Origin: Gillisia sp.
Lineage (GTDB): Bacteria; Bacteroidota; Bacteroidia; Flavobacteriales; Flavobacteriaceae
DNA: 45,004 nucleotides
Direction: 5' to 3'
Assembly (NCBI GenBank): GCA_024635715.1
Contig: JAGXIK010000178.1
Location: 1-45,004, forward strand
A program made the position numbers and the translations under genes. The notes below the pieces were generated by a model. The model searched no databases. It saw only the letters and a program-made list of their open reading frames with translations, and was not told the DNA's origin. Positions within the stretch are counted from its first letter, which is position 1, and each line of letters begins with the position of its first letter. This document shows positions 66-37,589 of the stretch, piece by piece.

Positions 66-139
66 GGTCCTATAGCTCAGCTGGTTAGAGCACCTGACTC
101 ATAATCAGGTGGTCCCTGGTTCGAGTCCAGGTGGGACCA
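66..139 (+). tRNA. tRNA with CAU anticodon (tRNA-Met, or tRNA-Ile2 if lysidine-modified)
   Basis: GGTCCTATAGCTCAGCTGGTTAGAGCACCTGACTCATAATCAGGTGGTCCCTGGTTCGAGTCCAGGTGGGACCA; acceptor GGTCCTA pairs with TGGGACC, anticodon stem CTGA/TCAG with CAT, T-arm GGTTCGAGTCC; discriminator A139. Confidence 0.95.
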
Positions 140-140
140 C
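98..140 (+). repeat. att core copy 1 (inside the intact tRNA)
   Basis: 43-bp exact direct repeat ctcataatcaggtggtccctggttcgagtccaggtgggaccac. Confidence 0.9.
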
Positions 141-2887: not shown

Positions 2888-4090
2888 ATGTTTTCAGTAA
2901 AAATTGTAACCAGGAAGAAAAAACTAAAGGATGGGAAATATCCAGTAATGCTTCGTGTAACCAAGGATAGAAAATCAAAATTAATACACTTGGGACTTAG
3001 AGTTGAGAAAGATGAATTCGATGATGAACGGTTTTTAAAGAACCATCCAAATTATAGGAAGAGAAACATCTTTATTACGAACCAAAGATTATATGCCGAA
3101 AAAATTATAGATCAGCTTCTGGAAAGGGGTAGGGATTTTACGGTTGATGATATCGCCAATGCCTTTATTAATAAAAATAATACCAATGTAGACGTATGGA
3201 ATTTTTTTAGGCAAAAGGTGGATATGCTACAAGAATCGGAAAAAATGGGTACTGCAAAAGCTTATGAAGATACGCGAGCAGCATTAAAAAAGTTCCACCC
3301 AGGGCCTTTAAACTTCAAAGATATAAATGTGTCATTTTTAGAGATGTTTGAATTATTCATGAGGAATAGAGGGAATCAGGAAGGTGGGATAGCATTTAAA
3401 ATGCGGCACCTCAGAGCGGTTTTCAATCAAGCCATACGCAAAGATGTTGTGGGGCAAAATTACTATCCCTTTAAAAAATATTTGGTTTCCAAATTGAAGA
3501 AAAGGGAACACAAAATAGCACTTTCCATTTCCGAAATGAAAACTCTTGAAAATGCAGACCTGTCAGATCAACCTCATCTAATAAATGCGCATCATTTCTT
3601 TATGTTTTCTTTTTACTGCCGGGGGATGAACTTTGCAGATATGGCTTTTTTAAGATGGAGTGATATTAGAAATAATAAGATCACATATTCAAGACAAAAA
3701 ACTCAGAAGCTATTTGTGATTGAGATATTACCACCTGTAGAAAAGATTTTGAATTGCTTTGAGGAACAAAGAATCACCTCCCCATATGTTTTTCCAATTC
3801 TTCTTCGGGAAGGGATGAATGCTCGCCAAATCGCAAATAGGAGGCATAAGGTACTGAGCTGGTATAATAACAAATTAAAGGAAATAGCTACGTTAGTTGG
3901 AATTGAGAATAGTATAACTTCTTATGTTGCTCGACATTCCTATGCAACAATTATGATGTATAAAGGTGTCTCTGTTGAGGTAATTTCAGAGTCCCTCGGA
4001 CATTCAAATGTGCAAATTACAGGTGCTTATTTAAAGAAGTTTGATAATAAAATAATTGATAATGAAAATAAAAAACTTTTAGACTTATGA
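2888..4090 (+). CDS. Tyrosine recombinase/integrase (element 1)
   Basis: C-terminal catalytic signature ARHSYATIMMYKGVSVEVISESLGHSNVQITGAYLKKF; N-terminal ARM-binding plus SAM-like domain. Confidence 0.93.
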   Translation: MFSVKIVTRKKKLKDGKYPVMLRVTKDRKSKLIHLGLRVEKDEFDDERFLKNHPNYRKRNIFITNQRLYAEKIIDQLLERGRDFTVDDIANAFINKNNTNVDVWNFFRQKVDMLQESEKMGTAKAYEDTRAALKKFHPGPLNFKDINVSFLEMFELFMRNRGNQEGGIAFKMRHLRAVFNQAIRKDVVGQNYYPFKKYLVSKLKKREHKIALSISEMKTLENADLSDQPHLINAHHFFMFSFYCRGMNFADMAFLRWSDIRNNKITYSRQKTQKLFVIEILPPVEKILNCFEEQRITSPYVFPILLREGMNARQIANRRHKVLSWYNNKLKEIATLVGIENSITSYVARHSYATIMMYKGVSVEVISESLGHSNVQITGAYLKKFDNKIIDNENKKLLDL

Positions 4091-6493: not shown

Positions 6494-6838
6494 ATGACCC
6501 AAAAGGATGAAGTAAAGTTGTTTTTGAATGATTTCCACCAAAAGCTTAAAATATGGGGAATCTTTTTTGTAGGTAGGGATAAAAACACTCAAACACTTGC
6601 AGACCTTGAAATTACCCCCCTTTATAGAGAATCTGTTCTACAAGATTTAAAAATTGATGATTATTGTGAAGGCCCCATTCCCAATACTCAATATGGTACA
6701 AAAGATATGTGGGTCTTCGGAAAAACCGTAAGGCAAAAGGAAATTTATATTAAGATAACTCTAAATTCAGAAGGCTTAAAAAGTATTTGTATTTCATTTC
6801 ATATTGCTGAATTCCCATTAAAATACCCTTTAAAATAG
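6494..6838 (+). CDS. MqsR/RelE-like toxin of a type II TA pair
   Basis: 114 aa; YIKITLNSEGLKSICISFHIAEFPLKYP C-terminus resembles MqsR-family toxins; directly followed by an antitoxin-like HTH/Panacea gene. Confidence 0.6.
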   Translation: MTQKDEVKLFLNDFHQKLKIWGIFFVGRDKNTQTLADLEITPLYRESVLQDLKIDDYCEGPIPNTQYGTKDMWVFGKTVRQKEIYIKITLNSEGLKSICISFHIAEFPLKYPLK

Positions 6839-6844
6839 TTGATT

Positions 6845-7858
6845 ATGAAAAGTCCAATCACAGGTAAGGAAATGAAACTGATAGTTGAGGAAAAACATCT
6901 GTTATTCAGGAAAGAAAGATTTAAATATGCCCATCTGAGTTATTACTGTGAAGAATCAAATGAATTTTTTACAGATACCGATTTAGACACATTAAATATT
7001 AATCAAGTTTACAATCAGTATCGAGAAAAATACAATGTACCCTTTCCGGAAGAAATTCAGGAAATAAGGATTAAATATGGGCTGTCTGGAGTAAAGATGT
7101 CAAAGGTATTAGGATTTGGCGTAAATTCTTATAATCAATATGAGAAAGGAGAAATCCCCAGTATTTCAAATGGGAAATTGATTATGTTAGCACAAGACCC
7201 AAAGCAGTTTCGGAAGTTAATTGAAGAATCAACAGATATCTTCAATACTTCACAGCTTCAGGATTTGCTAAAAAAAGTTGATAAGCTCGTCCGGGAGGAT
7301 GAACAAAACCGGTTTAAATTCCAATTAAAGAACTATTTATTAGGAGAAAGGAATCCAGATATTTTTACAGGTTATAAAATTCCTAGGTTAGAAAAGCTAT
7401 CCGAAATGGTGTTCTATTTCGCAAAAATGTTACAACCTGGAACCACTGTTTTAAACAAATTGTTATTTTACTCAGATTTTTTGAATTTTAAACAAACAGC
7501 CTATTCTATAAGTGGTAGCAGATATAGGGCTATTGATTATGGTCCAGTTCCAGTGAAGTATGACAGTATTTTTGAACATATAAGTGAGAATAATTTAATT
7601 CAAATCGTACACGTCGAATATGGGAGAGGATTTGTAGGAAAAGAGTTCCGACCTACCCCAGGCAGAGAATTTAATGCAGACCTTTTTTCCCCAATTGAAT
7701 TACAATCAATGGAAACAGTTGTTAGTTTTTTTAAAGGTAAGTCACGAAAGGAAATAGTGAATTTTAGTCATAAGGAAAAGGCATGGGAAATTAATTTTAA
7801 AAATGGAAAAGACCTTATTCCATATGATTACGGCTTTTATTTGAACGATATTCATTGA
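6845..7858 (+). CDS. MqsA-like HTH antitoxin fused to Panacea (DUF4065/SocA-like) domain
   Basis: HTH (IRIKYGLSGVKMSKVLGFGVNSYNQYEKGEIP) plus LSEMVFYFAKMLQPGTTVLNKLLFYSDFLNFKQTAYSISGSRYRAIDYGPVP, characteristic of DUF4065. ATG at 6845 preferred to the track TTG at 6839. Confidence 0.8.
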   Translation: MKSPITGKEMKLIVEEKHLLFRKERFKYAHLSYYCEESNEFFTDTDLDTLNINQVYNQYREKYNVPFPEEIQEIRIKYGLSGVKMSKVLGFGVNSYNQYEKGEIPSISNGKLIMLAQDPKQFRKLIEESTDIFNTSQLQDLLKKVDKLVREDEQNRFKFQLKNYLLGERNPDIFTGYKIPRLEKLSEMVFYFAKMLQPGTTVLNKLLFYSDFLNFKQTAYSISGSRYRAIDYGPVPVKYDSIFEHISENNLIQIVHVEYGRGFVGKEFRPTPGREFNADLFSPIELQSMETVVSFFKGKSRKEIVNFSHKEKAWEINFKNGKDLIPYDYGFYLNDIH

Positions 7859-7995: not shown

Positions 7996-10900
7996 TTAAA
8001 GCTCAAGATTAACGGGATGAGCCCTTAAAAGCCCTTCTTTCCATTTTTTAATGGGATTTTTAATTTGAGTAACTCGAGGATTATGGCTCAGTACGTCTTT
8101 TACCACATAAAAGTAATATTTATTCCCCTCACCTCTTTTATAGGTCTTTTGCGCTAAAGCCCATTGATATCCGTTAACTGGAAAAAGTTCTTTATCAGAC
8201 AGCTTTGAACTTTTCACTTCTATGTATTCAAGGATAGTTTCCTCATTCTTTATTAAAATATCACATCCAATACCTGTTTTGCCTTCTTCGTTAAGAAGTG
8301 AAATATTATAAAGATGTCCTTCACCGTCTTTAAACTGCATTTCACTTTCTGACTCGTCAACTAATTCTGCTTTTTTTCTCCATTCCTTTTTGAGGAATTT
8401 GAAAACAATCTTTTCTCCCCGGTCACCAATTTTGTTCTTCATATCCTGAGTCATTCCAGAAGAACTATGATTTTTCACCTTATGGGAGGCTTGGTTTCCT
8501 GTTTCACCGGAATTCTCACTATTTCTTTCATCAACTTCCACCTTAGAATCATCAAACCCTTGGAAATCCTCCTCTTCTAAGTCTACTTCATTTAATTCAG
8601 GAGCATTGTTTAACTCCTCCTCCTCTTCTTCCTTTTTTGCCTGTGAAGCTAGTTCATTTAAAGCAGTCATTAAGTCTATTCCTTTTTCTTCACACAGCTT
8701 CACTGCAGCTAGGAATTGAGCATAAGCCTCTCTTTTTTCTGGAGTTAATTGATCGATTAATTGCTGTTCAACTTCAGTCTTAAATCGTAGATACTTCAGT
8801 AAAAACTGAGCTTCTTCACTGGTCTTATCATATTCTGGGGATAATTCTGAAAGCTTAATATTGCCAGGTTTCTGTGGTTTTGAAGAGTCTAAATTAGTGT
8901 ATAACCAATTTTTCTTCTCAATTAAGCTTAAAAATGAACTAATAAAATGCGTTTGGTATTTGTAACGATAAAACCATTGGTAACTTCCCCGGAATAAGTC
9001 CTGATCAAAATCAGTCTTCTTGATAGTTGTCAAAATAATTTTCCAAAGCAGAAGAGAATTTTGTTTTAAAATAACTTGCTGATCCAAAAATTCCGGTATC
9101 CCTTCAAGCTGATAATCAGAAAGTCCTATTTGATAAGTAATTTTCTTTTCTCCACCATTTTCCCTTAATTGAAGTAATTTCTTATCATCTAAATCCGGAT
9201 CCTCATTATGAATTTTCCAAGGGTAATCTTTAATGCCACATTTTCTTAAAAATTCGCACCCCATATCAGGACCAATTTTCTGGTAAAAAGTCTGTTTGAC
9301 ATATTTTGTTTCGGGTGAAAAAGAAAAATACTGCTTTAAGTCTTGGACTGGCATGTATACTTCCTGGTAATTTTCATAGGTTTCTTTATCTGTGAGAGAT
9401 GAGATTGCTCTAAAAAAGTCTACCTCTGTATCTTCAAATAGACTTGTTAATTCTTCTTTTCGATTTTCTGGCAGGTTATCATATACTTGAAGTACAAGCC
9501 TTACATGTCTAGCATGTTCAACTTTTGAAGGTTTCTTTTTCTTCTTGTATAATGGAATTATTAATTGTTTTACCTGATCAAATATATCTGGTTCATGAAT
9601 GCCTAATTTATTTTTAATAAATTCCAAGGAGCCTTTGCTATTAATAATTGATGGCTTCACCGTGTCATAATTCACTTTTCCGCTTTTTATTGGAAGAAAT
9701 ACTCTCGGCTCTCCATCTTCACCAAAAGGATATGTCTGCTCATTATTATCAAGTCTTATAATCGGTTTAGTTCTTAGCACCCCTTTTTCTCTTCCACCAC
9801 TTCGCCAAAGTGATTCCTGTTTTCCATTCAAAAATTCATAGAACCTCCTTATCCAATTATCCTTTTTGGTTAATAGAAATTCTTCAGTAATATTCCTGGC
9901 AAAATCTTCGGGTGTATATTCTTCGATTTCCAGCTCCATCATTAAATATTCTCGCAGATCAGGTGTTCTATCGACAGTTATTTTCGTATCCATCCAATAC
10001 CTTACTCCAAAAAGCATTTCTAAATCACCTATACTGGATATGATAGAAGTTAACTCTCTACCACGAACAATTGCAAGATCCTTAGCGGCTTGGTATTGAT
10101 TACTAAACATAGTTGGGAGATACTTCTTATCAGAACGAAACTCATTTCTCACAGTTTCAAAGAACTTATGATAAACCACCTTATTTTCGTTTACATCAAG
10201 ATCTATAGGCAACTGATTTAAGAAATTCACAGTTATTAATTTTTTGTCCCTGTGATATTCCATAATATCTACCATAAGGTCACCCAATTCATCCAGTAAA
10301 TCCTGATTTACTTCTAGTTTAAAATCAATATTGTCTCGTGCAGGAGTTGTTGAAAAAGGAGCTTGAACAATAAAATTTAAAAAAGTTTCATGGCCGGTTT
10401 CAAAAAAGGCGAAAATGTTTCCTGTCTCTGCATTTTCAAAAACCTCCTCTTCATTTTTTGTAGTTCGTTTAAAGGCAATGGTTATTTTTGGCTTATTCTT
10501 TAAATGAGAAAATCTTTCATTTTTTACACTCTTTTTAAAAAGCAAATATCTAAACCTTTCTTTTCCTACTTTTACCGAAGTATCGAAAGCAATTGTGCTG
10601 TTTTCAAACTTTTGTTCTTGCTTCCTAAATATCCGTTCATTATCATCCCACCTAAAGGTAATTGAATGAAGGTGAGTTAGAAACAAAAGATTGTAAGGTT
10701 CAAAACTTTGAAATTTTTCAGTAATAAGACGAAATGTTCTTTGGATGTCCTTAGATGAACTAAATGGAAGAAGTATTACGGTTTGATCAAAATCATTATT
10801 TTCTGAAAAGTTTACAGGAAGAAGATAATTTTCAATTTCAAATGCATATTTGCCAGATTGGATCTTTGGAATGTCTGTTATTGCGTAAACCGATTTAAAA

Positions 10901-11208
10901 CCTATACCAAATTTCCCTATTTTCTCCTGATCGCTTCTTTTGTCATTGTTCTTTCCTGCAACATTGGTTATTCCTTCAATGTCCCCAATACTAAATGGAA
11001 CTCCGTTATGCTTTATTAGCAGTCCCTCTTTAGATAATTCAAATAAAATGGTAGTAGCTTTGGCATCCTCTGCATTTTGCAGAATTTCATAAATAAAGTG
11101 AGTAATATCTGAATATAGATCCTGAACGAGTTCAAGAAGACCTGATTCATTTTCTAATAATGCATCGTGTAATCTTTTTCTTTTATTATATATTTTATCG
11201 AAATTCAT
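7996..11208 (-). CDS. Sacsin-like GHKL ATPase with C-terminal DUF3883-like (NOV/PD-(D/E)XK-like) domain
   Basis: N-terminal EILQNAEDAKA and GKFGIGFKSVYAITD GHKL boxes; C-terminal RGEKIVFKFL...GIGCDILIKNEETILEYIEVKSS. ATG at 11208 lies just after the upstream gene's stop; the track start at 11244 is upstream. Confidence 0.85.
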   Translation of the reverse strand: MNFDKIYNKRKRLHDALLENESGLLELVQDLYSDITHFIYEILQNAEDAKATTILFELSKEGLLIKHNGVPFSIGDIEGITNVAGKNNDKRSDQEKIGKFGIGFKSVYAITDIPKIQSGKYAFEIENYLLPVNFSENNDFDQTVILLPFSSSKDIQRTFRLITEKFQSFEPYNLLFLTHLHSITFRWDDNERIFRKQEQKFENSTIAFDTSVKVGKERFRYLLFKKSVKNERFSHLKNKPKITIAFKRTTKNEEEVFENAETGNIFAFFETGHETFLNFIVQAPFSTTPARDNIDFKLEVNQDLLDELGDLMVDIMEYHRDKKLITVNFLNQLPIDLDVNENKVVYHKFFETVRNEFRSDKKYLPTMFSNQYQAAKDLAIVRGRELTSIISSIGDLEMLFGVRYWMDTKITVDRTPDLREYLMMELEIEEYTPEDFARNITEEFLLTKKDNWIRRFYEFLNGKQESLWRSGGREKGVLRTKPIIRLDNNEQTYPFGEDGEPRVFLPIKSGKVNYDTVKPSIINSKGSLEFIKNKLGIHEPDIFDQVKQLIIPLYKKKKKPSKVEHARHVRLVLQVYDNLPENRKEELTSLFEDTEVDFFRAISSLTDKETYENYQEVYMPVQDLKQYFSFSPETKYVKQTFYQKIGPDMGCEFLRKCGIKDYPWKIHNEDPDLDDKKLLQLRENGGEKKITYQIGLSDYQLEGIPEFLDQQVILKQNSLLLWKIILTTIKKTDFDQDLFRGSYQWFYRYKYQTHFISSFLSLIEKKNWLYTNLDSSKPQKPGNIKLSELSPEYDKTSEEAQFLLKYLRFKTEVEQQLIDQLTPEKREAYAQFLAAVKLCEEKGIDLMTALNELASQAKKEEEEEELNNAPELNEVDLEEEDFQGFDDSKVEVDERNSENSGETGNQASHKVKNHSSSGMTQDMKNKIGDRGEKIVFKFLKKEWRKKAELVDESESEMQFKDGEGHLYNISLLNEEGKTGIGCDILIKNEETILEYIEVKSSKLSDKELFPVNGYQWALAQKTYKRGEGNKYYFYVVKDVLSHNPRVTQIKNPIKKWKEGLLRAHPVNLEL

Positions 11209-11209
11209 G

Positions 11210-13978
11210 TTATATGGATTGAGGACAAATTGAACTCCAGTCACAATTTGAACAGTTATTTTTCATCGGTTTTCTTGGAAATTTATTGGAGGTTATACCA
11301 TCTATGGCCATATGAAGTTTTTGCTTTGTTTCTTTAATTTTTTCCGGTGTAATATCAATTTCTATCCGCTCAGCTTTTTTAGCATCGAGATAGTGCAAAT
11401 GGGCTTTATCAATCTGCTTTTTTAAAGTTTCTGTTGCTGCTATGGTGTATAAAACAACTTGATGAGCATATTTTTCTTCAAATTGGCTCTGAACCTTGCC
11501 TGTTTTAAAATCAATTATTTCTAGGGTATTTTCTTTCGCAGGTGATCTACTAAGCATATCTATAGACCCATTAATAAGAGCCTTGTTTTCAAAGTCCATT
11601 TCGAAATTTTGTTCCGTCTTTACAGCTAAAGAGAAATCCTGTCTCCAAAGTGCAATATAGTTTTGTAGACTTTTTAAGCATGAATTTTTTAATCTCTGCT
11701 CCTGCTTTGTCGCAGCATAACGCATATAAAAATGCTCATCTACAATTTTCGTCAGAAGTTTCTGGTCAGGAATGGTCTGGGTTCTTTCGTACTCCTTGTG
11801 TAAAAGGTTTATTAGATTATGGACCTGCTTTCCATACCCCAGGGCTTGGACCAACTCAGGATTAAACCCGTAGATAAAGCGCATCCTATAATCATAACTA
11901 CAGGATAGGTAGTACGAGAGTTCACTATAATTCGTAGGAAAACGTAAGTCACTGTCAAATCTCTCCACATCAGAAGCAGCTCGAGGAGTTGGGTCCTCCA
12001 TGGGAGTAGTTAGAAAATAAGCATCATTTATTTCGGACCAAAATTGATGTAAACCTGTCTTCCTTTTACCATTCAATTTTAAATTACAAGTAGTTAGGAA
12101 CAAATATTTTTTAGCTCGAGTTATTGCTACGTAGTACAACCTTCTTTCGTCTTCTATACTTCCACCATATCGAGAAAAATCAATGACCTCTTTGTCAAGA
12201 AAAGTAATTCTGTCTTTAGAATGACTTCGGGTTTCCTTTAAGTGAGGCATGAAAACTACCGGGAACCCCAATCCTTTCGTACCATGCAAGGTCATAATTT
12301 TTACAGCATCAATTAATCCCTCCTGAGCGTTGGTTGAACCCTCATCATAGGCATTGGAAACATAGGTTCGTACGTAGTCGATAAAACGATTGATGTCATT
12401 CTTACTCAAATAGGTTCTGGAACCTTCGAAGTCAGAAATTACCATACTAAGTTTCCCCAGATTGTACAGTAGCATATCATCCGCATTTTCTCGATGGAAA
12501 CTTATATCTGCCAGTCCCAAACCAGCGAGCAATCTATAATACAAACCTTGGAAATTAAGTCTTTTTTGATTTTCTACCCAGCCAACATTCGCTTCCACCA
12601 AGGCCTTGAAATCATCATAATGAATATCGAATAAATTACCAACCCTTTCATAAATGTCGAGTAAACTGTGATTAGACTCTCCTTCTTTTATTGTTTCACC
12701 TATGTACTGGAATAGCTGTAATAGAAGAGAAACTTCCTCTGTCTCTAATAAACCACCCATACCGGAATAAACCACATTTATTCCGACTTCTTCTAAAGCA
12801 TTTTTATAGGAGTGGGCATCACTACGTCTTCTGAATAACAGAACCATATCAGAATACATAAGTTTCCGAGGATGTCCTTTATCCAGATATTCTTTTCCGT
12901 GAAGATTTTGAATTTTATTTACAATCCAATCAATTTCCTCCTCCTGCTTCTCAAAACAAATCTTATACAGATCTCCTTCCTGGCTCTTTGCATCATTAGT
13001 TTGAATAGCTTTTTTAAATCTATTACTGTTTTGAGAAATAAATTCTGCTGCACATTTCACTATTGAGTCATGGGAACGTCTATTTATTTGAAGAAAATGT
13101 TTTGTGATTCCCTTATATCTTTTATCAAACGTCAAAATATTCTCGACATCTGCACCTCTCCATTGGTAAATGGATTGGTCATCGTCCCCTACTACACAAA
13201 CATTCCGTCTACCAGAAACAAGACTAATTAATTCCTCCTGAATAGGATTTATATCTTGATATTCATCAATTGTAAAAAACTTATAGCGACTCCTGATTTC
13301 CTTTAAAGCATATGGATCAGTTTTAAGGCTATCCACAGCTAATCGAAGAATGCCTGAAAAGTCTAAAAATCTTCGCTCATCAAGCTTCTCCTTATATTTC
13401 TCGATCGCAACCTTAAATGTCCCACTATCAATCTCGTTTTCCGTCAAACTCTCCTCTCTAAAGAAATCTACATCATTAAGAAAAGTTTCCAGCGTCCAGT
13501 TTTTCCAATATCCTGGGTTATTTTTTGCGAAATAGGGAATGTATTTATATCCTCTTCGTTTTAATCCATTGTAGAGAGCAGAAAGATTAATGCCATCTTC
13601 CCACTGCAAAGAAACTGCAAAAGCTTTCCGACTATTTTCGTCTAACATGTCATAAGCTCTATACTGAGGTACAAACTCCTGGAGAATCATAAAGGCAAAG
13701 GCATGAATGGTCCCAATGTAAATCTCACCTATATCCGGCTGCTTTCCAAGAAGGAATTTTATTTTATCCCTTACCCTAAATTTTAATTCTTCTGCAGCGG
13801 CATCATTAAAAGTTAGCGCAGCAATCTCAGAAGACTTAGCTATACCATGCGCTATTTGTGTAGCAATCCTTTCAGAAACAAATTCTGTTTTACCTGAACC
13901 TGCACTAGCGATTATTTGAACATTCCCTTTTAGAATTTTGGGCTTCTTACTAAATGTAGCTTTATTATGAATAGGCAT
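11210..13978 (-). CDS. UvrD/Rep-family SF1 helicase with C-terminal RecB/AddB-like Fe-S nuclease domain
   Basis: ASAGSGKT (motif I), FFTIDEYQDINPIQ (II), VVGDDDQSIYQWRGA (III), RRLYYVAITRAKKYL (VI); GSIDML...LEIIDFKTGK...HQVVLYT nuclease signature; LSCSYDYR plus C-x2-C-x5-C near the C-terminus. Confidence 0.9.
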   Translation of the reverse strand: MPIHNKATFSKKPKILKGNVQIIASAGSGKTEFVSERIATQIAHGIAKSSEIAALTFNDAAAEELKFRVRDKIKFLLGKQPDIGEIYIGTIHAFAFMILQEFVPQYRAYDMLDENSRKAFAVSLQWEDGINLSALYNGLKRRGYKYIPYFAKNNPGYWKNWTLETFLNDVDFFREESLTENEIDSGTFKVAIEKYKEKLDERRFLDFSGILRLAVDSLKTDPYALKEIRSRYKFFTIDEYQDINPIQEELISLVSGRRNVCVVGDDDQSIYQWRGADVENILTFDKRYKGITKHFLQINRRSHDSIVKCAAEFISQNSNRFKKAIQTNDAKSQEGDLYKICFEKQEEEIDWIVNKIQNLHGKEYLDKGHPRKLMYSDMVLLFRRRSDAHSYKNALEEVGINVVYSGMGGLLETEEVSLLLQLFQYIGETIKEGESNHSLLDIYERVGNLFDIHYDDFKALVEANVGWVENQKRLNFQGLYYRLLAGLGLADISFHRENADDMLLYNLGKLSMVISDFEGSRTYLSKNDINRFIDYVRTYVSNAYDEGSTNAQEGLIDAVKIMTLHGTKGLGFPVVFMPHLKETRSHSKDRITFLDKEVIDFSRYGGSIEDERRLYYVAITRAKKYLFLTTCNLKLNGKRKTGLHQFWSEINDAYFLTTPMEDPTPRAASDVERFDSDLRFPTNYSELSYYLSCSYDYRMRFIYGFNPELVQALGYGKQVHNLINLLHKEYERTQTIPDQKLLTKIVDEHFYMRYAATKQEQRLKNSCLKSLQNYIALWRQDFSLAVKTEQNFEMDFENKALINGSIDMLSRSPAKENTLEIIDFKTGKVQSQFEEKYAHQVVLYTIAATETLKKQIDKAHLHYLDAKKAERIEIDITPEKIKETKQKLHMAIDGITSNKFPRKPMKNNCSNCDWSSICPQSI

Positions 13979-14018
13979 ATTTCCTGGTTAAAAGTTGAAA
14001 TAATATTTCCTTTCTTTT

Positions 14019-16274
14019 TCAATTCCTTAATTCAAAAAAACGACTTAAGCTTTTTCTCAATAAAGCTCGACATTCATCTGCAGATTTCAAATCTAAGGTG
14101 CTAACATGTGCAGCCTTATTTCTAAAATCTTGTTGTATTCTTTTTACCTGATCTAAAAACTCTCGACTGGTAAGTTCTTCTTCAAAATACTTGGACAGGA
14201 ATGCCATAAAATGCTGGAGTAGGGGACTGTTTTCATAAGTACTTCCAGTGGGCTTAAGAAGGTTTAAAATCCAATGCATATCACCTAATGGATATTTACA
14301 ATTATCTCTCCGGACATGCTGAGCAAACTTCATTGCCTTAGTCCCATTTTTAATATCATAAGCCGTTAATTCTTTTGTGTTCTGGTTTAAAAGGCCTTCA
14401 TTATGGTAATGGTGAAAGAGCTTGAAAAGAATTTCATTTTCTAAAGTTCTACAATATTGCAGGATAAAAGGTGAGAAATCAGCATCTTGTAAGCTAGAAA
14501 GTTCATCGTATAAATACTCGGCCAGGGGTAGAAATTGTTTGGAAGATGGATGAAGTTCATCCCAATAGATTAACCATCTTTTAGTTAATTCTTCATACTC
14601 TTCAATTGTCTCCCTTTTTTCATCAAGAACCGATTTCATTCGTCTATCCAAAGAAGAAAGCATTCTCAATATTTTTTCTTCATCCTCTCTACTGGTATTC
14701 TTTATTTTGGTAAAGTCATCTTGTAAGACCTGAATTTTTTGAATAATAATATTCAACTTCTCATTTGTTGTGTCGAGCTTTTCATTTGTATTCTGAAGCC
14801 CTTCTAATATTTCATCTATTTTTTTATCTCTATTCTCCAGTAACTCTCTTAAACCTCTATTCTCTGCCAGTTTTTTATTTTTTTTGGCTAATTCCCCTTT
14901 ATAGAATTGGATTTTAGCTCTTAATTCTTCCAGTTCATTTTGGTCAGCTAATTCGATAGATTTATCACCAAGGCGATTGAGATTGTCTAAAGGCAAAACT
15001 GGTATCTGAATTCTCTTCAAACTGCTAATAGACAGGTTTGGTATTACGCTACCAGTGGATAAATCCCCTGCCTGTAGATTAAAAATTCTTTTCCCTTCTT
15101 CTGTATTCAGATAAACCTGTAAATATTCACTTTCCGCACTCCGAAGTATTACGAGGTTATTAGAAACCAAAACCGAAGGATCATCTTCCTTGACAACATA
15201 AATTTTTGCTTGATTAAAGAAGGTTGAAATTAAAATGTCCCCTGGTTGAGCTACTGCTTTCAGATTGTTTGGATCCTCAATAATGTTCAAAAAGCTAGAG
15301 TTCTCAGTTACTGTAATTTTATTGTCATTTATTTCAGATGGTTTTAAAATAAGGAATTTCCCTTTAGATTTCTTTTCTTCCTTTTTAATGTATGCCCCTC
15401 TTATAATTTTAGCAAAGTCAGTAAGACTTTTTGTTTCAAATTCTTTCAGAAATTCATATTTATCAGATTGTCTACTGATATAATATTCTGGCAGAAGCCG
15501 ATCTTCAAGTTGAGATTTAGGTATTGTGACTAACAGGTTCTCATTTAAAGTTGGCTTTAGATCATGCAAGTGCTGAACGCTTCCAAAACTGATATTATCT
15601 ATTTCAGATTTTGTTAAGTGGATTAAATATTTCCTGAGATTGGTATTGGAGTTTTCTAATTTAGGTAGTGTTGTCACACTTTTTAAATGGGGTATAATAC
15701 CTTCTTTTGTATCATCATTAGAATTACTTAGAAAATCATAACTGGCTATAAAGAATGCCTCACCATCATCCTCAAGTAGCTCTATAGCTCGCATTAAAAA
15801 TGCTTCCTCTATTTTCCTTTTTTTCCCGTTAAGATTAATTCTTGGTCCTGATGGAAGGGTGCCTACTATAAGGTCATATTTTGTCTCGGAATAGAATTGA
15901 AAGAAATCTGCATTAATAATATTACTGTCAGGGACTAAATATTTTGCTATTGAGGAAATTCCTTTATTGATCTCTATACCTGTTAAATTTGCCCCAGTTG
16001 TATTCGATAGACAGTAAAGTATATTTGCTAAGCCACAGCATGGATCCAGAACATTCTTAGGCATCTTACCAATCGAATTAACAATTAATGAAGCGAATGG
16101 ATTAGGAGTATAATGATCCAGTATCCTGGGATCCCTGTTTAAGTTCTCTTCAAATTTTTGCCTATCTATATTAAATTCACCTTTCGCGTCTTTGGAAATC
16201 AACCTGTGATAATCTTCAAAAGAGGATTTATATTTCGTTTTATTCGAGATAAAATCAATTAAAGCTCCTAACAT
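14019..16274 (-). CDS. HsdM-like methyltransferase fold with degenerate catalytic motifs + HsdS-like TRD + coiled coil + C-terminal HEPN-like domain
   Basis: HYTPNPFASLIVNSI, VLDPCCGLANILYCL (motif I-like), YDLIVGTLPSG where NPPY/F is expected; TRD-like PGDILIS...VSNNLVILR...STGSVIPNLSISSLKRIQIPV; long Lys/Glu coiled coil; C-terminal RNKAAH (R-x4-H). Confidence 0.8.
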   Translation of the reverse strand: MLGALIDFISNKTKYKSSFEDYHRLISKDAKGEFNIDRQKFEENLNRDPRILDHYTPNPFASLIVNSIGKMPKNVLDPCCGLANILYCLSNTTGANLTGIEINKGISSIAKYLVPDSNIINADFFQFYSETKYDLIVGTLPSGPRINLNGKKRKIEEAFLMRAIELLEDDGEAFFIASYDFLSNSNDDTKEGIIPHLKSVTTLPKLENSNTNLRKYLIHLTKSEIDNISFGSVQHLHDLKPTLNENLLVTIPKSQLEDRLLPEYYISRQSDKYEFLKEFETKSLTDFAKIIRGAYIKKEEKKSKGKFLILKPSEINDNKITVTENSSFLNIIEDPNNLKAVAQPGDILISTFFNQAKIYVVKEDDPSVLVSNNLVILRSAESEYLQVYLNTEEGKRIFNLQAGDLSTGSVIPNLSISSLKRIQIPVLPLDNLNRLGDKSIELADQNELEELRAKIQFYKGELAKKNKKLAENRGLRELLENRDKKIDEILEGLQNTNEKLDTTNEKLNIIIQKIQVLQDDFTKIKNTSREDEEKILRMLSSLDRRMKSVLDEKRETIEEYEELTKRWLIYWDELHPSSKQFLPLAEYLYDELSSLQDADFSPFILQYCRTLENEILFKLFHHYHNEGLLNQNTKELTAYDIKNGTKAMKFAQHVRRDNCKYPLGDMHWILNLLKPTGSTYENSPLLQHFMAFLSKYFEEELTSREFLDQVKRIQQDFRNKAAHVSTLDLKSADECRALLRKSLSRFFELRN

Positions 16275-16306: not shown

Positions 16307-17575
16307 TTAATTTTCTCTTCCCACTAAATAGTTCTTTTCTTCGAGGACACTAACCTGCCCATTCATAAGCATCGGCAATAACCAATCTCGCAACTCAGTG
16401 AGCCTTTGGTTTTCACTCTTATTTAATATTTGTTTGTTCAAGAAAGGCGAGACCATTTTTTGAAAATTACTGAAAATTGAGTCGGGCGGCATACAATCCA
16501 TAATTTGATTTAAATGTGTCGGACCAAAATTCTTTTGAATACTACCTGTTGCAAGCTGTGTTAATTTTCCTAAAAAGTATTGAGATTTAAGATAGATAAC
16601 CATAAAAGAATGATAATAAGATTTTATGGGCCTAAATCTTATAACACTTGTATTTAACAAAAGAGGTAAATGTTCCTTTCTAACAACAGCAGACCGCCCT
16701 AAACTGCCTGATGTCGAGACAACAACATCATTTTCTTCTAATAAAAAATGAGAGAGGTTATTAATTAATTCATTTTTAATTTTTGTGGCATTCGAAACAT
16801 CTAAATCACCTTCTTTAATACATCGTATATTAATGAAGTTATGCCCATCATCTGAATAATTAAACTTTCTAATACCAGGCCCTTCCAAATAATCAAAATA
16901 ATTTCCAATTAATTTCAACTCCCACCCCTCAGGAATCTCCCTTTTTAACTCCTCATTATATACCATCTTCCCTCCAGAAGATTTATAAGGATTTCCATTA
17001 GTATCAGGAAAATCAAACTGCACAAACCAATAGTCATAAAGCGTTCTGGCCATCGTTTCCAACTCTTGGTTGATTTTGTTGTTGACTTCTATTTTGGCAT
17101 CTAAACCGGAAAGGACTTTGGCTATTTGTTTTTGGGTTGAAATATCTGGATAGGTTACTTTTAAACTTCTAATATTTTCATTATAAAGTCTGTTAATAGT
17201 ACTACCTTTTGTTGCTATCCAAGGCTCTGTTTGATAATAATAATATAGGAAACCATTTATAACTTTCTTCTCATCATTCGCTATCCAAACTATATTTGAA
17301 TCTTGAAAATATGATGGTTCACCATTAAAAATTACTGTTTTTCCAATTGTACCAGCTGCAGAAATTAAAATATCGCCAATTTTAGGATAGGAATATTTTT
17401 CGCGAAATGATTGATACAACTTATTTGAAATAAACGTATCAGATATTCCTCCGAAAGTAGAAATTTTATAGAATGGAATATCACCACTGTCAGAAGTCTG
17501 ATGTTTCATTACACGTTTACACATTGAAACTTTACCAAGTTCTCCAAGCCTGCTCGTTTTGAATATATCACTCAT
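16307..17575 (-). CDS. hsdS: Type I restriction-modification specificity subunit
   Basis: Two TRDs and central conserved QKQIAKVLSGLDAKIEVNNKINQELETMARTLYDYWFVQFDFP. Confidence 0.95.
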   Translation of the reverse strand: MSDIFKTSRLGELGKVSMCKRVMKHQTSDSGDIPFYKISTFGGISDTFISNKLYQSFREKYSYPKIGDILISAAGTIGKTVIFNGEPSYFQDSNIVWIANDEKKVINGFLYYYYQTEPWIATKGSTINRLYNENIRSLKVTYPDISTQKQIAKVLSGLDAKIEVNNKINQELETMARTLYDYWFVQFDFPDTNGNPYKSSGGKMVYNEELKREIPEGWELKLIGNYFDYLEGPGIRKFNYSDDGHNFINIRCIKEGDLDVSNATKIKNELINNLSHFLLEENDVVVSTSGSLGRSAVVRKEHLPLLLNTSVIRFRPIKSYYHSFMVIYLKSQYFLGKLTQLATGSIQKNFGPTHLNQIMDCMPPDSIFSNFQKMVSPFLNKQILNKSENQRLTELRDWLLPMLMNGQVSVLEEKNYLVGREN

Positions 17576-19199
17576 ACTTCAACCCTTTCAAATTATCTTG
17601 AATCTCTTTTTCCAGACTTTTCGATTCAGCAAAAAGTATTTCCAAATTACTTTCAAAACTGTTCATTTTCGTTTTAAATTCTTCCGCAGTAATATCTATA
17701 TAGTCTATTTTTACTTCAAAATATTGTCCTGCACTTAGGCTATAGTTCTTGGCTTTTATATCGTCATAACTCACTACTACAGAGAAATCGTCTTTTGCTT
17801 CTTTATTTACAAAAGTGTTGATGATTTTGTCTTCTTCATTATCCGATAACAAGGTCTTTTGATTTTTTCCTTCTTTAACTGTGGTTCCTAAATTAGAGGC
17901 ATCTAACAAAACTACATCACCTTTATTGGCGGCATCTAAAAATATGATAGACACATTAGTGCCTGTAGTGGCAAAAATATTAGAAGGCATACTCACTACA
18001 CCTGCCAACATTTTACTGTCCACAATTTTCTCGCGTATCTTTTTTTCAATACCAGATTGTGCAGTAATAAAACCTGTTGGTACTACAATGGCGGCCTTTC
18101 CTGTTCCATCTTTAAGTGAATAAATAATATGTTGTAAAAACAAGGTATAGATGGACATACTTTCCTTTTTCTTGGTAGGTACGTTTGGAATTCCTGCAAA
18201 AAAACGGGCTTTGTTTTCTTTTTTATTCAGTGTGTCTACATCATCTGCAAAATCTAACTTAAACGGTGGATTACTTACGATGTAGTCAAAATGGCGCAAT
18301 TTGCCATCCTTTTTGTGATATGGGTCGGTCATGGTATTGCCCTGTATCACATTCTCAATACTATGTACCAAGTTGTTCAAGACCAAATTTAAACGTAAGA
18401 GGTTAGAGGATTTCTGTGAGATATCTTGTGAATATACCGTACATTTTTCAGGACCAATGGCGTGTGCCAAATTCATTAATAATGTTCCAGAACCTGCACT
18501 TGGGTCGTAAATAGTCACGTTACTAGTTGGTTCTGGCACCAAAATATTGGCTATGATTTTTGACACGGCATGTGGTGTGTAATACTCGGCATATTTTCCA
18601 CCAGCATCGGAGTTGTAGTCTTTAATTAAGTATTCAAATATGGTAGAGAAAAAGTCAAACCCTTCTCCCATAATATTTTCAAAATTGAAAATCACCAACT
18701 TATTAAATAAGGCTACTGCAAAACCATCGCGCTTACTACTTACGTATTCCGTAAGACGGTCAAAGAGTTGTATTTTTTGTCCGTCTTCTGTCTTTACAGC
18801 AAATAAATCGTTATTAAGTACTGCAATATCAATTAAAGTGTCATCTACCATTTTAGCAAAATCAGGTTCGTTTTGTCTGTCAAACAAATACCCAATTAAA
18901 TGGTGTGGTTTTAAAAAGGCAGTGTCTTCACCCAATTGAAATTGTAACATATTATAGTCCCCATCTTTCATTTTGGCAAGTTCGGCTTCCCAATTTTCAC
19001 TTGTTGCCAGTTCTGGTTTTAACTTTTTTACTTCATAAGCAAACTTGTCGTTTAAAAACTTATATAAAAAGATTTGGCTTATAATTTTAAATTCATTCCC
19101 ATCATTTCCTAATCCATAACTTGCACAAACAGCTTTAAGCTCGTCTATAAGTGTTTTTGTTTTGGTAACAAAGGGTTGCTTGTTAATGTCTTTTGTCAT
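17568..19199 (-). CDS. hsdM: Type I restriction-modification DNA methyltransferase subunit
   Basis: GGKYAEYYTPHAVSKII, YDPSAGSGTLLMNLA (motif I), FDYIVSNPPFKLDF (motif IV). Confidence 0.96.
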   Translation of the reverse strand: MTKDINKQPFVTKTKTLIDELKAVCASYGLGNDGNEFKIISQIFLYKFLNDKFAYEVKKLKPELATSENWEAELAKMKDGDYNMLQFQLGEDTAFLKPHHLIGYLFDRQNEPDFAKMVDDTLIDIAVLNNDLFAVKTEDGQKIQLFDRLTEYVSSKRDGFAVALFNKLVIFNFENIMGEGFDFFSTIFEYLIKDYNSDAGGKYAEYYTPHAVSKIIANILVPEPTSNVTIYDPSAGSGTLLMNLAHAIGPEKCTVYSQDISQKSSNLLRLNLVLNNLVHSIENVIQGNTMTDPYHKKDGKLRHFDYIVSNPPFKLDFADDVDTLNKKENKARFFAGIPNVPTKKKESMSIYTLFLQHIIYSLKDGTGKAAIVVPTGFITAQSGIEKKIREKIVDSKMLAGVVSMPSNIFATTGTNVSIIFLDAANKGDVVLLDASNLGTTVKEGKNQKTLLSDNEEDKIINTFVNKEAKDDFSVVVSYDDIKAKNYSLSAGQYFEVKIDYIDITAEEFKTKMNSFESNLEILFAESKSLEKEIQDNLKGLKYE

Positions 19200-22100
19200 G
19201 CGATTTTACCGTGGTATTCGTTAAGATATTCCTCTACTATCAGGTCGCGTATAAATTCAACGGTTTCAAAATCCAATTGGGTATCATTGGTTTTTTGAAA
19301 TTCGTTAAAAACTAGTTTAGCCACCACACGTGCAAAATAACTTTCATTATTTAAACTATCGTTTCTATCGAGTACAGCAATATCGGTTTGTTCTTTAATT
19401 TTTTGTAAGGCTTCAATAATGGCAGTTTTTAATTGAGAAGGTCTGCCAGCTTCTACTAATCGTTTTTGAACACGTGCATATTTGGCATCGCCTTCATATT
19501 TATCTTTTAATAAATCATTTCGTCTGTTTAGTTCTTTAATTTTTTCATGAATGGATTTTAATGAGGTGATGTTGGTTTGCATCTCGTCTTGAGACACTTC
19601 ATTCAGGTTTTTATTATCGAATAAGCGACGTAGTTCTTCATACAAACTTATCCATTCTGGGTCTTTCGAATCGAAATTACCACCTAATGCTTCCCTGGTT
19701 TTCTTGAGAATATCTTTTAATTCACCTGCGAGTACTAACTCGCTTTCACCAATTTTTTTAAAACCAAAAACAATATCTTCTAAGGCTATGTTTAGTAGAT
19801 TACCAACCTCTTCATTTTGCTCTAATGCATCTTTGGCGTTAATCAATGCTAAATGATTGGTAGCCTCAATACGAAGCTCTCCAAGTTTTCTAAAATCGAT
19901 ACGTTCTAGCAATTCATATTCACCAACCAAACGGATGATATTATACAAAACACGAGCATCTTCCAAGGATTTTTTGATGCGTTGCATTTCGCCTTGGTCA
20001 CTTATTTGAGAAATTTGAGAAGAGAAGTTTTCGGCATTTTTCAAATCAAAATCAGCCAATGCTTCCTTAATATCTCGAATAGATATTTCCATTTCTTCAC
20101 GCGACATAAAGAGGTTAGAATAACTTTCCATTTCATCACCTAAAACTCCTTGAAGCTCATCAAAATAGGCGCGATTGGTTTTATCAAACTCATTAGAGAT
20201 ATCTGCAAAATCAACGACGTGTCCGTATTTATAATTTTTATATTTGCGATTCACACGTGTGAGGGCTTGTAATAAGTTATGCGCTTTAATCACACGTCCT
20301 AAATAGATTTTTTTTAAGCGTTTAGCATCAAAACCAGTTAATAGCATGTTATACACAAACAGGATGTCAATTTTGCCAGCTTTAAAATCGTCTCGCCATG
20401 TGCCAAGTTCATCTTTACTTCCAGAATCATAAAGAATAAGCGCAGCTTTTTTAATACGATATTCTTCTTTGAGAATGGTTTTATATTTTGCACCAGGTTC
20501 GGCAGCCATTGGTAGGGACTCTGCTATTTCTGGGCTAGTATAAACTTTATTGAAAATACTGAATAGCTCTTGTGCTTGTTCACTACTAGCGCAAATAACC
20601 ATTGCTCCAATAGACCCATCACTATTGCGTTGCCTGAAATCTTGAAAATCTTTAACAATGTAATCAAGCATTGGTGCCACAAACGAAGGATGTGCGTACA
20701 CTTGCTTTTTTTGAGCGTCCCCTTTTTTGATTTCTAAATCATCCAGAATTTTTTTGAACTTAACCTTATACTCGGTTTCAATTTCCTCTCGGATAAGTTT
20801 AAGCGTATAACCATCAGCAATCGATTTGTTGTAATAGTATTTATGGATATAATCACCAAAAAGATGTTTAGATTTTAAACTGTCGCCAATTAATGGTGTT
20901 CCAGTCAACCCTATTTTTATTGCGTTACGATCTGATTGCTCCAAATTTGCTAAAAAACTACCCTCTGGATTATAGCTACGATGTACTTCATCTAGAATGT
21001 AAACACGTTGTATGTTGATGTTATAATCTGTGGTGGTACTCACACTTGGGTCATCTTCAAACTTCTGAATGTTCACCACCGTGATTTCACGTTTGCCTTT
21101 GTCATTGTTAACAGCCGTTGTTTTCTTTAAATCTGCCACAAACTCATCTCTGGAGTTTACGGTGTGTACTTTTAAGCCACGTGCTGTAAATTCATCTCTC
21201 GCTTGCGAGAGTAAATCCAAACGGTCTACAATAAAATAGAACTTTGGAATAATGTGTTGTTTCTGGTAGTAGTCTGTGAGGAAATGAACGTTGTAATACG
21301 CCAAAGCAGTTTTTCCACTTCCTTGAGTATGCCAAATAATCCCCTTACGAATACCATTATTTAGTTTTTCTTCAATTGCTTTTGTGGCAAACAATTGTGG
21401 GTAACGCATGATATGTTTTTCCAGCCCATTATGTTCTTTAACATATGCTAAACTGTATTGCAAAATAAATTTAAGTCTGTCTTTGGAAAGCATCGAGGTT
21501 AAAATGCCATTGGTTGCAGAATTTGGGTTCTTGTTTGTAATATATTCTGCGCTATTTTTTATCGCTTGATAATTAGTGTCTTTTAACAAGAACTCTTCAA
21601 CGTCTATATCTATAGGCTTTAATTCTTTTGATAAATTAAATCCAATTTCTTCTCTAAAATAGTTGAAGTGCAAATTGTGGTAAGATGCAGAAGCATAGTA
21701 AGCACCTTGCCATGGTTCAATTTCGTTATCATCATAGTCCATATTATTGGAAAAGATCATAAACTGGGTCAAGTTGACAAACTTTCTAAATTTCTTATTT
21801 TTAAAACGACTATTAATTCTGTCCCTTTCAGCAATAACACCATTTCGGTTATTTGGTTTTTTTACCTCTATAAATGCCAAAGGCATTCCATTTATCAATG
21901 TAATAATATCCGGTCTAAAATTATCCTCGCCATTTTTATAAGGCAACTCTGTCACAACATGGAACTCGTTATTTTCAAATTTTTCGAAATCAATAAGCTT
22001 AATACCAGACCTGTTGGTTAACATTTCAAAAAATACTTTACCTAAATCTTCGTTTTCAAGCGTCAAGCTAACTTCTTGGTATAACCTATCAATATCGTCT

Positions 22101-22267
22101 TTAGATATTCCTTTATTTATTTTAGCAATAGCCTCATTAAAGATATCTCGGAAAATGTTTGTTTCCTCATCCCACACTTCATTTTTAAGAGATAGGTATT
22201 TATAGCCCAAGCGCGTAAGATGTAGAATAGCAGGTAATTTTACTCGGGAGTCTTCGTTGAAAGTCAT
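19196..22267 (-). CDS. hsdR: Type I restriction endonuclease subunit
   Basis: RPDIITLINGMPLAFIEVKKP nuclease motif; IIWHTQGSGKTALAYY; DEVHRS; VYNMLLTGFDAKRLKKIYLGR. Probable ATG at 22267 (MTFNEDSRVKLPAILHLTRLGYKYLS); the 40-aa extension to 22387 is not protein-like. 4-nt overlap with hsdM. Confidence 0.95.
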   Translation of the reverse strand: MTFNEDSRVKLPAILHLTRLGYKYLSLKNEVWDEETNIFRDIFNEAIAKINKGISKDDIDRLYQEVSLTLENEDLGKVFFEMLTNRSGIKLIDFEKFENNEFHVVTELPYKNGEDNFRPDIITLINGMPLAFIEVKKPNNRNGVIAERDRINSRFKNKKFRKFVNLTQFMIFSNNMDYDDNEIEPWQGAYYASASYHNLHFNYFREEIGFNLSKELKPIDIDVEEFLLKDTNYQAIKNSAEYITNKNPNSATNGILTSMLSKDRLKFILQYSLAYVKEHNGLEKHIMRYPQLFATKAIEEKLNNGIRKGIIWHTQGSGKTALAYYNVHFLTDYYQKQHIIPKFYFIVDRLDLLSQARDEFTARGLKVHTVNSRDEFVADLKKTTAVNNDKGKREITVVNIQKFEDDPSVSTTTDYNINIQRVYILDEVHRSYNPEGSFLANLEQSDRNAIKIGLTGTPLIGDSLKSKHLFGDYIHKYYYNKSIADGYTLKLIREEIETEYKVKFKKILDDLEIKKGDAQKKQVYAHPSFVAPMLDYIVKDFQDFRQRNSDGSIGAMVICASSEQAQELFSIFNKVYTSPEIAESLPMAAEPGAKYKTILKEEYRIKKAALILYDSGSKDELGTWRDDFKAGKIDILFVYNMLLTGFDAKRLKKIYLGRVIKAHNLLQALTRVNRKYKNYKYGHVVDFADISNEFDKTNRAYFDELQGVLGDEMESYSNLFMSREEMEISIRDIKEALADFDLKNAENFSSQISQISDQGEMQRIKKSLEDARVLYNIIRLVGEYELLERIDFRKLGELRIEATNHLALINAKDALEQNEEVGNLLNIALEDIVFGFKKIGESELVLAGELKDILKKTREALGGNFDSKDPEWISLYEELRRLFDNKNLNEVSQDEMQTNITSLKSIHEKIKELNRRNDLLKDKYEGDAKYARVQKRLVEAGRPSQLKTAIIEALQKIKEQTDIAVLDRNDSLNNESYFARVVAKLVFNEFQKTNDTQLDFETVEFIRDLIVEEYLNEYHGKIA

Positions 22268-22451
22268 AAATTGGTTAGTTCTAAAGTTTTGGTTGCTCCA
22301 ATAGAAATAACCTGCAGGGGGGTTATTTGTGGGACAATTTAAGAAAAAGAAACTGAAAGTTAAGAAAGCGTGAAGAAGAATATCCATTATGTCGGAAGTA
22401 TAGTCTTTAACAGTTATCTAAATTAAATACTTAATAGAATATTAACTAATA

Positions 22452-29766: not shown

Positions 29767-29809
29767 CTCATAATCAGGTGGTCCCTGGTTCGAGTCCAGG
29801 TGGGACCAC
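29767..29809 (+). repeat. att core copy 2 (element 1/element 2 junction; partial tRNA)
   Basis: Exact copy of the 43-bp core. Confidence 0.9.
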
Positions 29810-29819
29810 TAATAAAATC

Positions 29820-29849
29820 AAGCCTTTCACGATGTGAGGGGCTTTTTTT
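29820..29849 (+). terminator. Same terminator carried at the left end of element 2
   Basis: aagcctttcacgatgtgaggggcttttttt. Confidence 0.7.
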
Positions 29850-29856
29850 ATTTTTT

Positions 29857-29879
29857 GGGTCAAACACAGGTCAAACATT
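29857..29879 (+). repeat. Putative integrase arm-type site, element 2 left
   Basis: gggtcaaacacaggtcaaacatt; starts 48 nt after the core end; exact copy at 44599-44621. Confidence 0.6.
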
Positions 29880-29889
29880 CTAACTAAAT

Positions 29890-30792
29890 TTGATAATGAA
29901 CTTGTATAAACCTTCAACTGAAAAACAACCACTTCTCTTCTTTAAGACCTTTCTTAGCAGAGAGCGATTAGAAGCATATGAAAATCATTTTTATGAACCA
30001 CCTACCAATGATTATGAACTGCCTTTCAATCGCAGTCTGCAGAATAACAAGGGTGAAGGGTATATAGAATACCATAAAGATTTTTATGAAGATGGTGAAG
30101 CGCCCTTGGTTAGAATATATTTTGTCGACAACCTACAAATGTTGTTACGCACCCAAGCCAATATCACACTTCGATTCCTTTCAGAACGAAGATTACAAAA
30201 AGAATTTGATGAGGTTTTTGAAAACGGCTTCGTACAAAGGCAATTAAAGGAACTTCACGAAATTAATGAAAGTACCCAAAGCTTACCTCATAATAGGGTA
30301 ATTCAGGTTGTACTTTTTGATTTAAAGGATAAAATTACTGCATTTCTTTATGCCCAGGGCAAGGAGAGACCAACGGAAAAATTTAAAAGGCCCCAAAAAG
30401 AAAGTAACCCCTTCTTCGGCAATAAACAAAAAACAACTTTTTTTAGGCTTAAGAAGCTTTATGACGAAATTTTGGATATTGGATTAATTGATGAAGAACA
30501 AGTAACCGAAGAAGCTTTTACAAATGTCTTTACCTCAAAAACACCAGAACGTAAAATCTTCTTTAATAGGGATAATTATGAAGTGGTTTACTTTCTGGAT
30601 GTGTTATCTGCGTATTTTGATGACTTAACACCTGTCCAAATTGGTAGAAGTAAATCTTTTATTACTAAAGGCGATACTGTCATTACTGCCGGCCTAATTA
30701 ACACTTATAACAGTCGCCTGCAAAATAAAGATAAAAGTAAATATGATAAAATAAGGCAAGCGGTTACAAAGGCTATACCTTCGCAAGAATAA
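29890..30792 (+). CDS. Hypothetical protein adjacent to the element 2 left end
   Basis: 300-aa ORF, coding-like; internal ATG at 29896 also possible. Confidence 0.75.
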   Translation: MIMNLYKPSTEKQPLLFFKTFLSRERLEAYENHFYEPPTNDYELPFNRSLQNNKGEGYIEYHKDFYEDGEAPLVRIYFVDNLQMLLRTQANITLRFLSERRLQKEFDEVFENGFVQRQLKELHEINESTQSLPHNRVIQVVLFDLKDKITAFLYAQGKERPTEKFKRPQKESNPFFGNKQKTTFFRLKKLYDEILDIGLIDEEQVTEEAFTNVFTSKTPERKIFFNRDNYEVVYFLDVLSAYFDDLTPVQIGRSKSFITKGDTVITAGLINTYNSRLQNKDKSKYDKIRQAVTKAIPSQE

Positions 30793-30831
30793 ACCTTACA
30801 CTTTACCTTACACTTTGCCTCAACCCTTCAT

Positions 30832-30857
30832 TACACTTTAGTATTGAAGGGTTTTTT
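30832..30857 (+). terminator. Rho-independent terminator
   Basis: aacccttca...ttgaagggttttttt hairpin, preceded by tandem ACCTTACACTTT repeats. Confidence 0.7.
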
Positions 30858-30887
30858 TGTGTTGTTTTTTTGCCTGAATATTAACCA

Positions 30888-31223
30888 ATGATATGTGCAT
30901 ATCTCAAAAGTAAAATAAGTATGGATCAGTTAAATCAGATATTAGAAAGAATTGAAAGCCTCCTCTCAAACCACAATTATGAAGGGAAAGATTATATAGA
31001 TGTTAAAGAGGCTGCGTCATATTTAAATATATCTAAATCTGCGATCTATAAAATGACAAGCAATAGGCAATTACCATTTTATAATCCAGGTGGAAAAAAG
31101 ATTTATTTCAAGAAAAGTGAACTCAATCACTGGATTGAGTCAGCAAAACAAGGTTCCATTGAAGATTATGCATTGGAGGTTGATAGCTATTTAAATCGGC
31201 CCCCAGGCTTTAAAAATGTTTAA
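30888..31223 (+). CDS. Helix-turn-helix (HTH_17/excisionase-like) protein (element 2)
   Basis: IDVKEAASYLNISKSAIYKMTSNRQLPFYNPGGKKIYFKKSELNHWI. Confidence 0.9.
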   Translation: MICAYLKSKISMDQLNQILERIESLLSNHNYEGKDYIDVKEAASYLNISKSAIYKMTSNRQLPFYNPGGKKIYFKKSELNHWIESAKQGSIEDYALEVDSYLNRPPGFKNV

Positions 31224-31243
31224 TAGATGTAATTAAAAGAACT

Positions 31244-34393: not shown

Positions 34394-34398
34394 GGTGT

Positions 34399-37587: not shown

Positions 37588-37589
37588 AA

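Follow-up and report, generated by a model that had tools for sequence, protein, structure and literature searches.

Gene order and sequence place three adjacent minus-strand genes of a Gillisia sp. contig (JAGXIK010000178.1, assembly GCA_024635715.1; the 45,004-nucleotide (nt) stretch analysed is called the window) at the tail of a six-gene type I restriction-modification (R-M) run, hsdR-hsdM-hsdS-gene1-uvrD-ghkl, carried on a mobile element. We consider it likely that this three-gene block, hereafter the triad, serves a mobile type I R-M operon as an accessory, second-line cassette. The detailed mechanism that we propose for it below is more tentative, and cassette and mechanism, taken together as a single statement, appear probable. 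As far as the present data go, the triad divides into two separable modules, gene 1 and the uvrD-ghkl pair. The six genes of the run are as follows.

19196..22387, minus strand: hsdR, type I restriction subunit; homologues suggest a true start near 22267
17568..19199, minus strand: hsdM, type I methylase, 543 amino acids (aa), NPPF intact
16307..17575, minus strand: hsdS, type I specificity subunit, 422 aa, two target recognition domains (TRDs)
14019..16274, minus strand: gene 1, 751 aa; a gamma-class N6-methylase fold that is inactive, with one TRD, a coiled coil and, at the C-terminus, a helical domain (R718-x4-H723, HEPN-like by motif)
11210..13978, minus strand: gene 2 (uvrD), 922 aa; UvrD/Rep superfamily 1 (SF1) helicase and Cas4/AddB-like PD-(D/E)XK nuclease with a C-terminal Cys cluster
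7996..11208, minus strand: gene 3 (ghkl), 1070 aa from ATG; sacsin-type GHKL ATPase and NOV_C (DUF3883) nuclease-like domain

The triad continues a type I R-M gene set

Directly upstream of the triad and on the same strand, hsdR, hsdM and hsdS lie contiguously at 16307-22387, with their NPPF, DPSAGSG, GSGKT and DEVHR motifs all intact, and hsdS ends 32 nt before gene 1. From hsdR to ghkl, successive genes are spaced by -4, -8, 32, 40 and 1 nt. At the tightest junction within the triad, the UvrD stop codon (TAA) occupies 11212-11210 and the GHKL ATG lies at 11208; the longest open reading frame of gene 3 begins with GTG at 11244. A preliminary description of this DNA had reported three minus-strand genes with gaps of 40 and about 1 nt, and both the open reading frame coordinates and the stop and start positions bear this out. 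It had also framed the triad as standing without hsdRMS, a premise that fails here, as hsdRMS is directly upstream and the block is not self-contained.

Pfam matches bear out the domains assigned earlier to the three proteins: gene 1 matches Methylase_S (E=1.8e-7) and N6_Mtase (E=2.4e-4), gene 2 matches UvrD-helicase (E=5e-54), UvrD_C and PDDEXK_1 (E=5e-27), and gene 3 matches SACS (E=9e-18) and NOV_C (E=5e-8), the present Pfam name of DUF3883. The catalytic motifs of UvrD-PDDEXK and GHKL-NOV_C are intact, and the defence context proposed for the block is likewise supported.

The region after hsdS is a variable slot

We looked at the neighbourhoods of relatives of gene 1, UvrD, GHKL and HsdM. 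Sampling was partial, comprising 1934 counted genomes and one pattern-based scan that finds only relatives with common short conserved peptides; the absence of the triad elsewhere is thus well supported among close relatives and less so among distant ones. No UvrD or GHKL gene was present in any of 13 loci encoding gene-1 relatives (nine essentially full length, four with the C-terminal domain only), which came from a scan of one genome per species and some of which end early at contig ends. Among 18 close hsdM relatives (66-89% HsdM identity), drawn from a sample of 301 family genomes, no hsdRMS locus carried any triad gene, and the three genes were found together in none of the UvrD-relative or GHKL-relative loci examined. 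We therefore rejected the triad as a conserved unit: the homologues rarely co-occur, an outcome that the preliminary description had itself named as refuting its view, the families travel separately and the block runs on from hsdRMS, so that its earlier designation as an undescribed three-gene system is not supported.

In 12-13 of the 18 hsdRMS relatives, hsdS is followed within ~80 nt by the start of some other gene on the same strand, and many of the genes in this position are defence-like. A Septu-like pair of AAA and HNH-like genes (PDC-M62) lies within the run in five loci, and two loci have a two-gene module whose last product is a Schlafen/AlbA protein; other occupants include PDC-S26, PDC-M33A, a leucine-rich repeat (LRR)-Roc-COR-TIR protein and genes of unknown function. 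Because other genes fill this position in hsdRMS relatives, the region after hsdS acts as a variable cassette slot, with the triad as one occupant. Type I R-M operons can house extra defence genes, such as TgvAB and RloF (PMC11411939) or PrrC (PMC3710099), and the slot extends this habit. Since its cassettes differ from one flavobacterium to another, it offers a place to look for second-line genes with a possible role alongside type I restriction. The slot (loci L061-L078) also holds genes without any family match, for example L062:10344-12092 and L075:7959-8672.

Gene 1 belongs to a rare family of inactive methylases

The gene 1 family comprises ten sequences that align over ~750 aa, the L014 member being cut at a contig end. 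It is rare, with gene 1 occurring in 2 of 395 sampled genomes of the class, this one included. Every one of the ten has lost the catalytic Asn of NPP(Y/F)G, the motif reading, for example, GTLPSG, SYFPFG, SHFPYG, GSLPFG, TFPPLG, TGLPFG, GCLPFG or AFPPFG, and gene 1 thus lacks the (N/D/S)PP(Y/F/W) motif of an active gamma-class N6-adenine methylase. The degenerate catalytic motif noticed previously in gene 1 is accordingly a property of the whole family. The S-adenosylmethionine-binding region is kept in about seven members. A full-length AlphaFold2 model of gene 1 (mean predicted local distance difference test (pLDDT) score 69) matches CamA and M.TaqI in Foldseek with E values of about 1e-15 to 1e-12, and the first ~450 residues of gene 1 therefore represent a gamma-class methylase with a TRD. 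We rejected the idea that gene 1 and the adjacent HsdS read the same site, as their TRDs share 25% identity over 118 aa (E=0.005), a weaker match than to unrelated HsdS.

Gene-1 relatives often stand as single genes. Some adjoin type I R-M genes, namely hsdR and a fused hsdM-S at L019 and hsdS at L014; the L009 relative lies beside a GmrSD-type gene, and that of L015 (Zeaxanthinibacter) beside DruE-, DpdE/DrmD- and DrmMI-like genes.

The most conserved part of gene 1 is its C-terminal domain. The last ~200 residues model confidently as all-helical (pLDDT 89.6, predicted template modelling (pTM) score 0.83) and carry an RNKAAH motif at residues 718-723, whose R and H are invariant in 12 of 12 aligned sequences. 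These span three architectures: the dead methylase-TRD, N6_N4 methylases (Microcoleus, Prolixibacteraceae and Phormidium) and a RecD-like PDC-S68 helicase. The N6_N4 methylases retain DPPW in two of three and a DPFxGxGTT stretch in all three. The candidate toxin domain of gene 1 also sits on methylases that appear to be active and on RecD-like helicases. The HEPN signature is R-x4-6-H (PMC3710099), and a motif of this form is conserved across the relatives of gene 1. From the motif and the all-helical model, we hypothesise that the domain is of HEPN type. It is possible, and we offer this with reserve, that gene 1 stands for a family of RNase toxins, so far undescribed, that read DNA sequence and in which the dead methylase and TRD would sense the modification or occupancy of a site and switch on a HEPN-type RNase.

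With gene 1 comes a small family, open to experimental test, that joins a dead methylase-TRD reader to a candidate RNase domain. If the RNase activity is real, the reading of DNA sequence or methylation would be tied to growth arrest within one polypeptide. According to the main HEPN survey (PMC3710099), the fusion partners of R-M-associated HEPN domains are limited to nucleases, helicases and ATPases and do not include methylases; gene 1 would be an exception if its HEPN identity holds.

The N6_N4 methylases ending in the R-x4-H domain are found at L016:8954-10771, L017:8801-10591 and L018:8783-10612, with motifs that look intact in L016 and L017. RecD-like helicases with the same ending occur at L020:6263-15651 (PDC-S68) and L007:8341-12822; at L020 the next genes encode a DrmD-like SNF2 helicase and a protein whose N-terminus is Hsp70-like.

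UvrD-PDDEXK and sacsin-GHKL relatives recur near R-M genes and helicases

Among near full-length relatives of UvrD-PDDEXK, a DNA methylase gene lies beside the helicase-nuclease gene or within a few kb of it in all nine loci examined. It is immediately adjacent in seven (Athalassotoga, genomes G362, G386 and G139, Enterococcus, B. cereus and Haloferax) and near in the other two (Priestia and Vibrio). By these gene neighbourhoods, UvrD-PDDEXK is an R-M-associated helicase-nuclease.

Relatives of the sacsin-GHKL protein are encoded directly next to a helicase gene, SNF2 or other, in Methanomethylovorans, G340, Rhizobium and Ensifer; the Ensifer set has three genes, for an SNF2 helicase, a sacsin-GHKL protein and an SF1 helicase-nuclease. 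On a Chryseobacterium plasmid the order is Mod, a small gene, Res, sacsin GHKL and UvrD/exonuclease, and a Sulfuricurvum relative lies before qatABCD. A UvrD gene adjoining a sacsin-like GHKL gene recurs elsewhere at the domain level, not as orthologues. These neighbourhoods echo the theme of GHKL ATPases with helicases and R-M described previously (PMC2292703). The Chryseobacterium plasmid, pA2BH1 (L082:3032-15409), encodes a type III Mod-Res followed by a protein that fuses sacsin and SF1 parts and by a UvrD helicase into which an RNase_T exonuclease domain is inserted. No viral-contig relatives were found for any of the three triad proteins.

A possible mechanism and its alternatives

In the mechanism that we propose, HsdRMS would act as the first line of defence. 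Gene 1 would bind DNA through its TRD and dead methylase fold without modifying it, and would then signal the state of that DNA, via the coiled coil, to the R-x4-H domain. This domain, probably an RNase, would arrest growth when restriction has failed. UvrD-PDDEXK would unwind and degrade DNA that has been cut by HsdR or otherwise exposed, and the sacsin-like GHKL-NOV_C protein may serve as its ATP-driven partner.

Several points weigh against a second-line cassette working in this way. The single operon is a prediction from the spacing of the six genes, and the work of the triad behind HsdRMS is likewise putative; scans for promoters and terminators gave results at or below shuffled expectation and were uninformative. 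Most gene-1 relatives occur without hsdRMS (L008-L013), and the link to R-M may be loose. Finally, the C-terminal domain of gene 1 gave no significant HEPN match with Foldseek against PDB and BFVD, with hmmsearch against PDB, in a Pfam scan of 12 members or with hhalign against the AbiD protein of the window; the best BFVD row is a HEPN protein, with a weak score (E=0.72). Of the HEPN-like R-x4-H domain suggested in the preliminary description, the motif is thus invariant in relatives, while the fold finds no significant match in Foldseek.

Alternatively, the triad genes might be independent occupants parked in one defence island, gene 1 being a single-gene system and UvrD and GHKL separate R-M accessories, none of which works with HsdRMS. 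The window does carry, on two tandem elements, type III R-M genes, AbiD and an MqsRA-like pair besides hsdRMS; the content of the slot varies between genomes and many gene-1 relatives stand alone. However, the 1-nt spacing of UvrD and GHKL is consistent with translational coupling, and pairs of helicase with sacsin-GHKL and of UvrD with methylase recur, making this explanation somewhat unlikely. At the other extreme, the triad could be a complete, dedicated defence system in its own right, in which gene 1 senses DNA and UvrD-nuclease and GHKL-NOV_C act as effectors. The close spacing of the genes (40 and 1 nt) and activities that fit together would suit such a system, and the Ensifer trio shows that sets of this kind can form, yet the lack of co-occurrence in the 13 gene-1 loci, the UvrD and GHKL loci and the 18 hsdRMS relatives, together with the frequent occurrence of gene 1 as a single gene, renders it improbable.

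For gene 1 itself, a different role is conceivable. As a dominant-negative methylase, it could occupy sites and block protective methylation by the methylases of invaders, its C-terminal domain being merely structural. Such target-site blocking was proposed for the dead methylase of DndH (PMC10853773), which has the same combination of a dead gamma-class methylase and a TRD, and the HEPN fold of the C-terminal domain is unconfirmed by searches. Against this role, the C-terminal domain is the part of gene 1 under strongest conservation, has an invariant R and H, and is common to intact methylases and RecD-like helicases. This conservation and wider distribution mean that an effector fits better than a spacer, and we regard the dominant-negative explanation as improbable.

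Comparison with known defence systems

Among the closest parallels to the second-line cassette is PrrC-PrrI, in which a HEPN anticodon nuclease is encoded in a type Ic R-M operon (PMC3710099). Both have an R-x4-H gene of HEPN-like character in an hsdMSR neighbourhood and a proposed role as second line after restriction; in contrast to PrrC, gene 1 has no ABC ATPase in a Pfam scan, its sensor part is a dead methylase with a TRD, and it is HEPN-like by motif only. TgvAB and RloF, GmrSD-type genes located inside type I R-M operons (PMC11411939), resemble the triad as additional defence genes within an hsd operon, but belong to other protein families and lie between hsd genes, whereas the triad follows hsdS at the end of the run. 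DndH (PMC10853773) likewise places a catalytically dead gamma-class methylase and a TRD, as a DNA reader, beside an effector domain. Unlike the DAM-TRD-REase (restriction endonuclease) module of DndH, gene 1 has an attached domain that is all-helical with R-x4-H, and no HerA/FtsK ATPase. The GHKL (MORC/paraMORC) ATPases of R-M operons (PMC2292703) also stand beside helicases and nucleases; gene 3 differs in being sacsin-type with NOV_C, and its partner is an SF1 UvrD-nuclease in place of superfamily 2 (SF2) helicases.

In PADLOC, gene 3 matches a TmtA model with E=9.3e-72 over residues 34-784, the models having about 1300-1780 positions; a literature search found no publication defining TmtA. 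The UvrD helicase part of gene 2 scores E=4e-53 to GajB models of Gabija, but gene 2 has an added PDDEXK nuclease domain, and Gabija was rejected as the PADLOC scan of the block and its neighbours found no GajA (OLD/TOPRIM) adjoining. BREX, DISARM and Zorya were also rejected, as PglZ/BrxC, DrmA/DrmB and ZorA/ZorB were not among the window genes scanned. Of the systems that the preliminary description did not recognise in the block, BREX, DISARM, Gabija and Zorya thus have no core partners among the genes scanned, and type I R-M genes directly adjoin it.

Integrative elements and surrounding genes

The host genome assembly is 65% complete. Within the window, a ~41-nt core corresponding to the 3' half of tRNA-Met occurs in identical copies at about 98, 29767 and 44735, delimiting two tandem integrative elements at tRNA-Met: 98-29810, with hsdRMS and the triad, and 29767-44777. 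Each has its own tyrosine integrase and AAA_24 and DUF3871-type genes. The features of the triad-bearing element are as follows.

98..140, no strand assigned: attL-like core, 3' half of tRNA-Met
2888..4090, plus strand: tyrosine integrase
29767..29810, no strand assigned: second att-like core copy, right end of the element bearing hsdRMS and the triad

Diverged repeats common to both elements lie near their right ends. At 35827-41110, the second element has the mod (35827-37587) and res (37590-40232) genes of a type III R-M system, with an AbiD/Abi2 gene (40235-41110) directly after them. In the first, an MqsRA-like toxin-antitoxin pair at 6494-7858 lies on the opposite strand and converges on the triad; its antitoxin has a C-terminal Panacea (SocA-like) domain.

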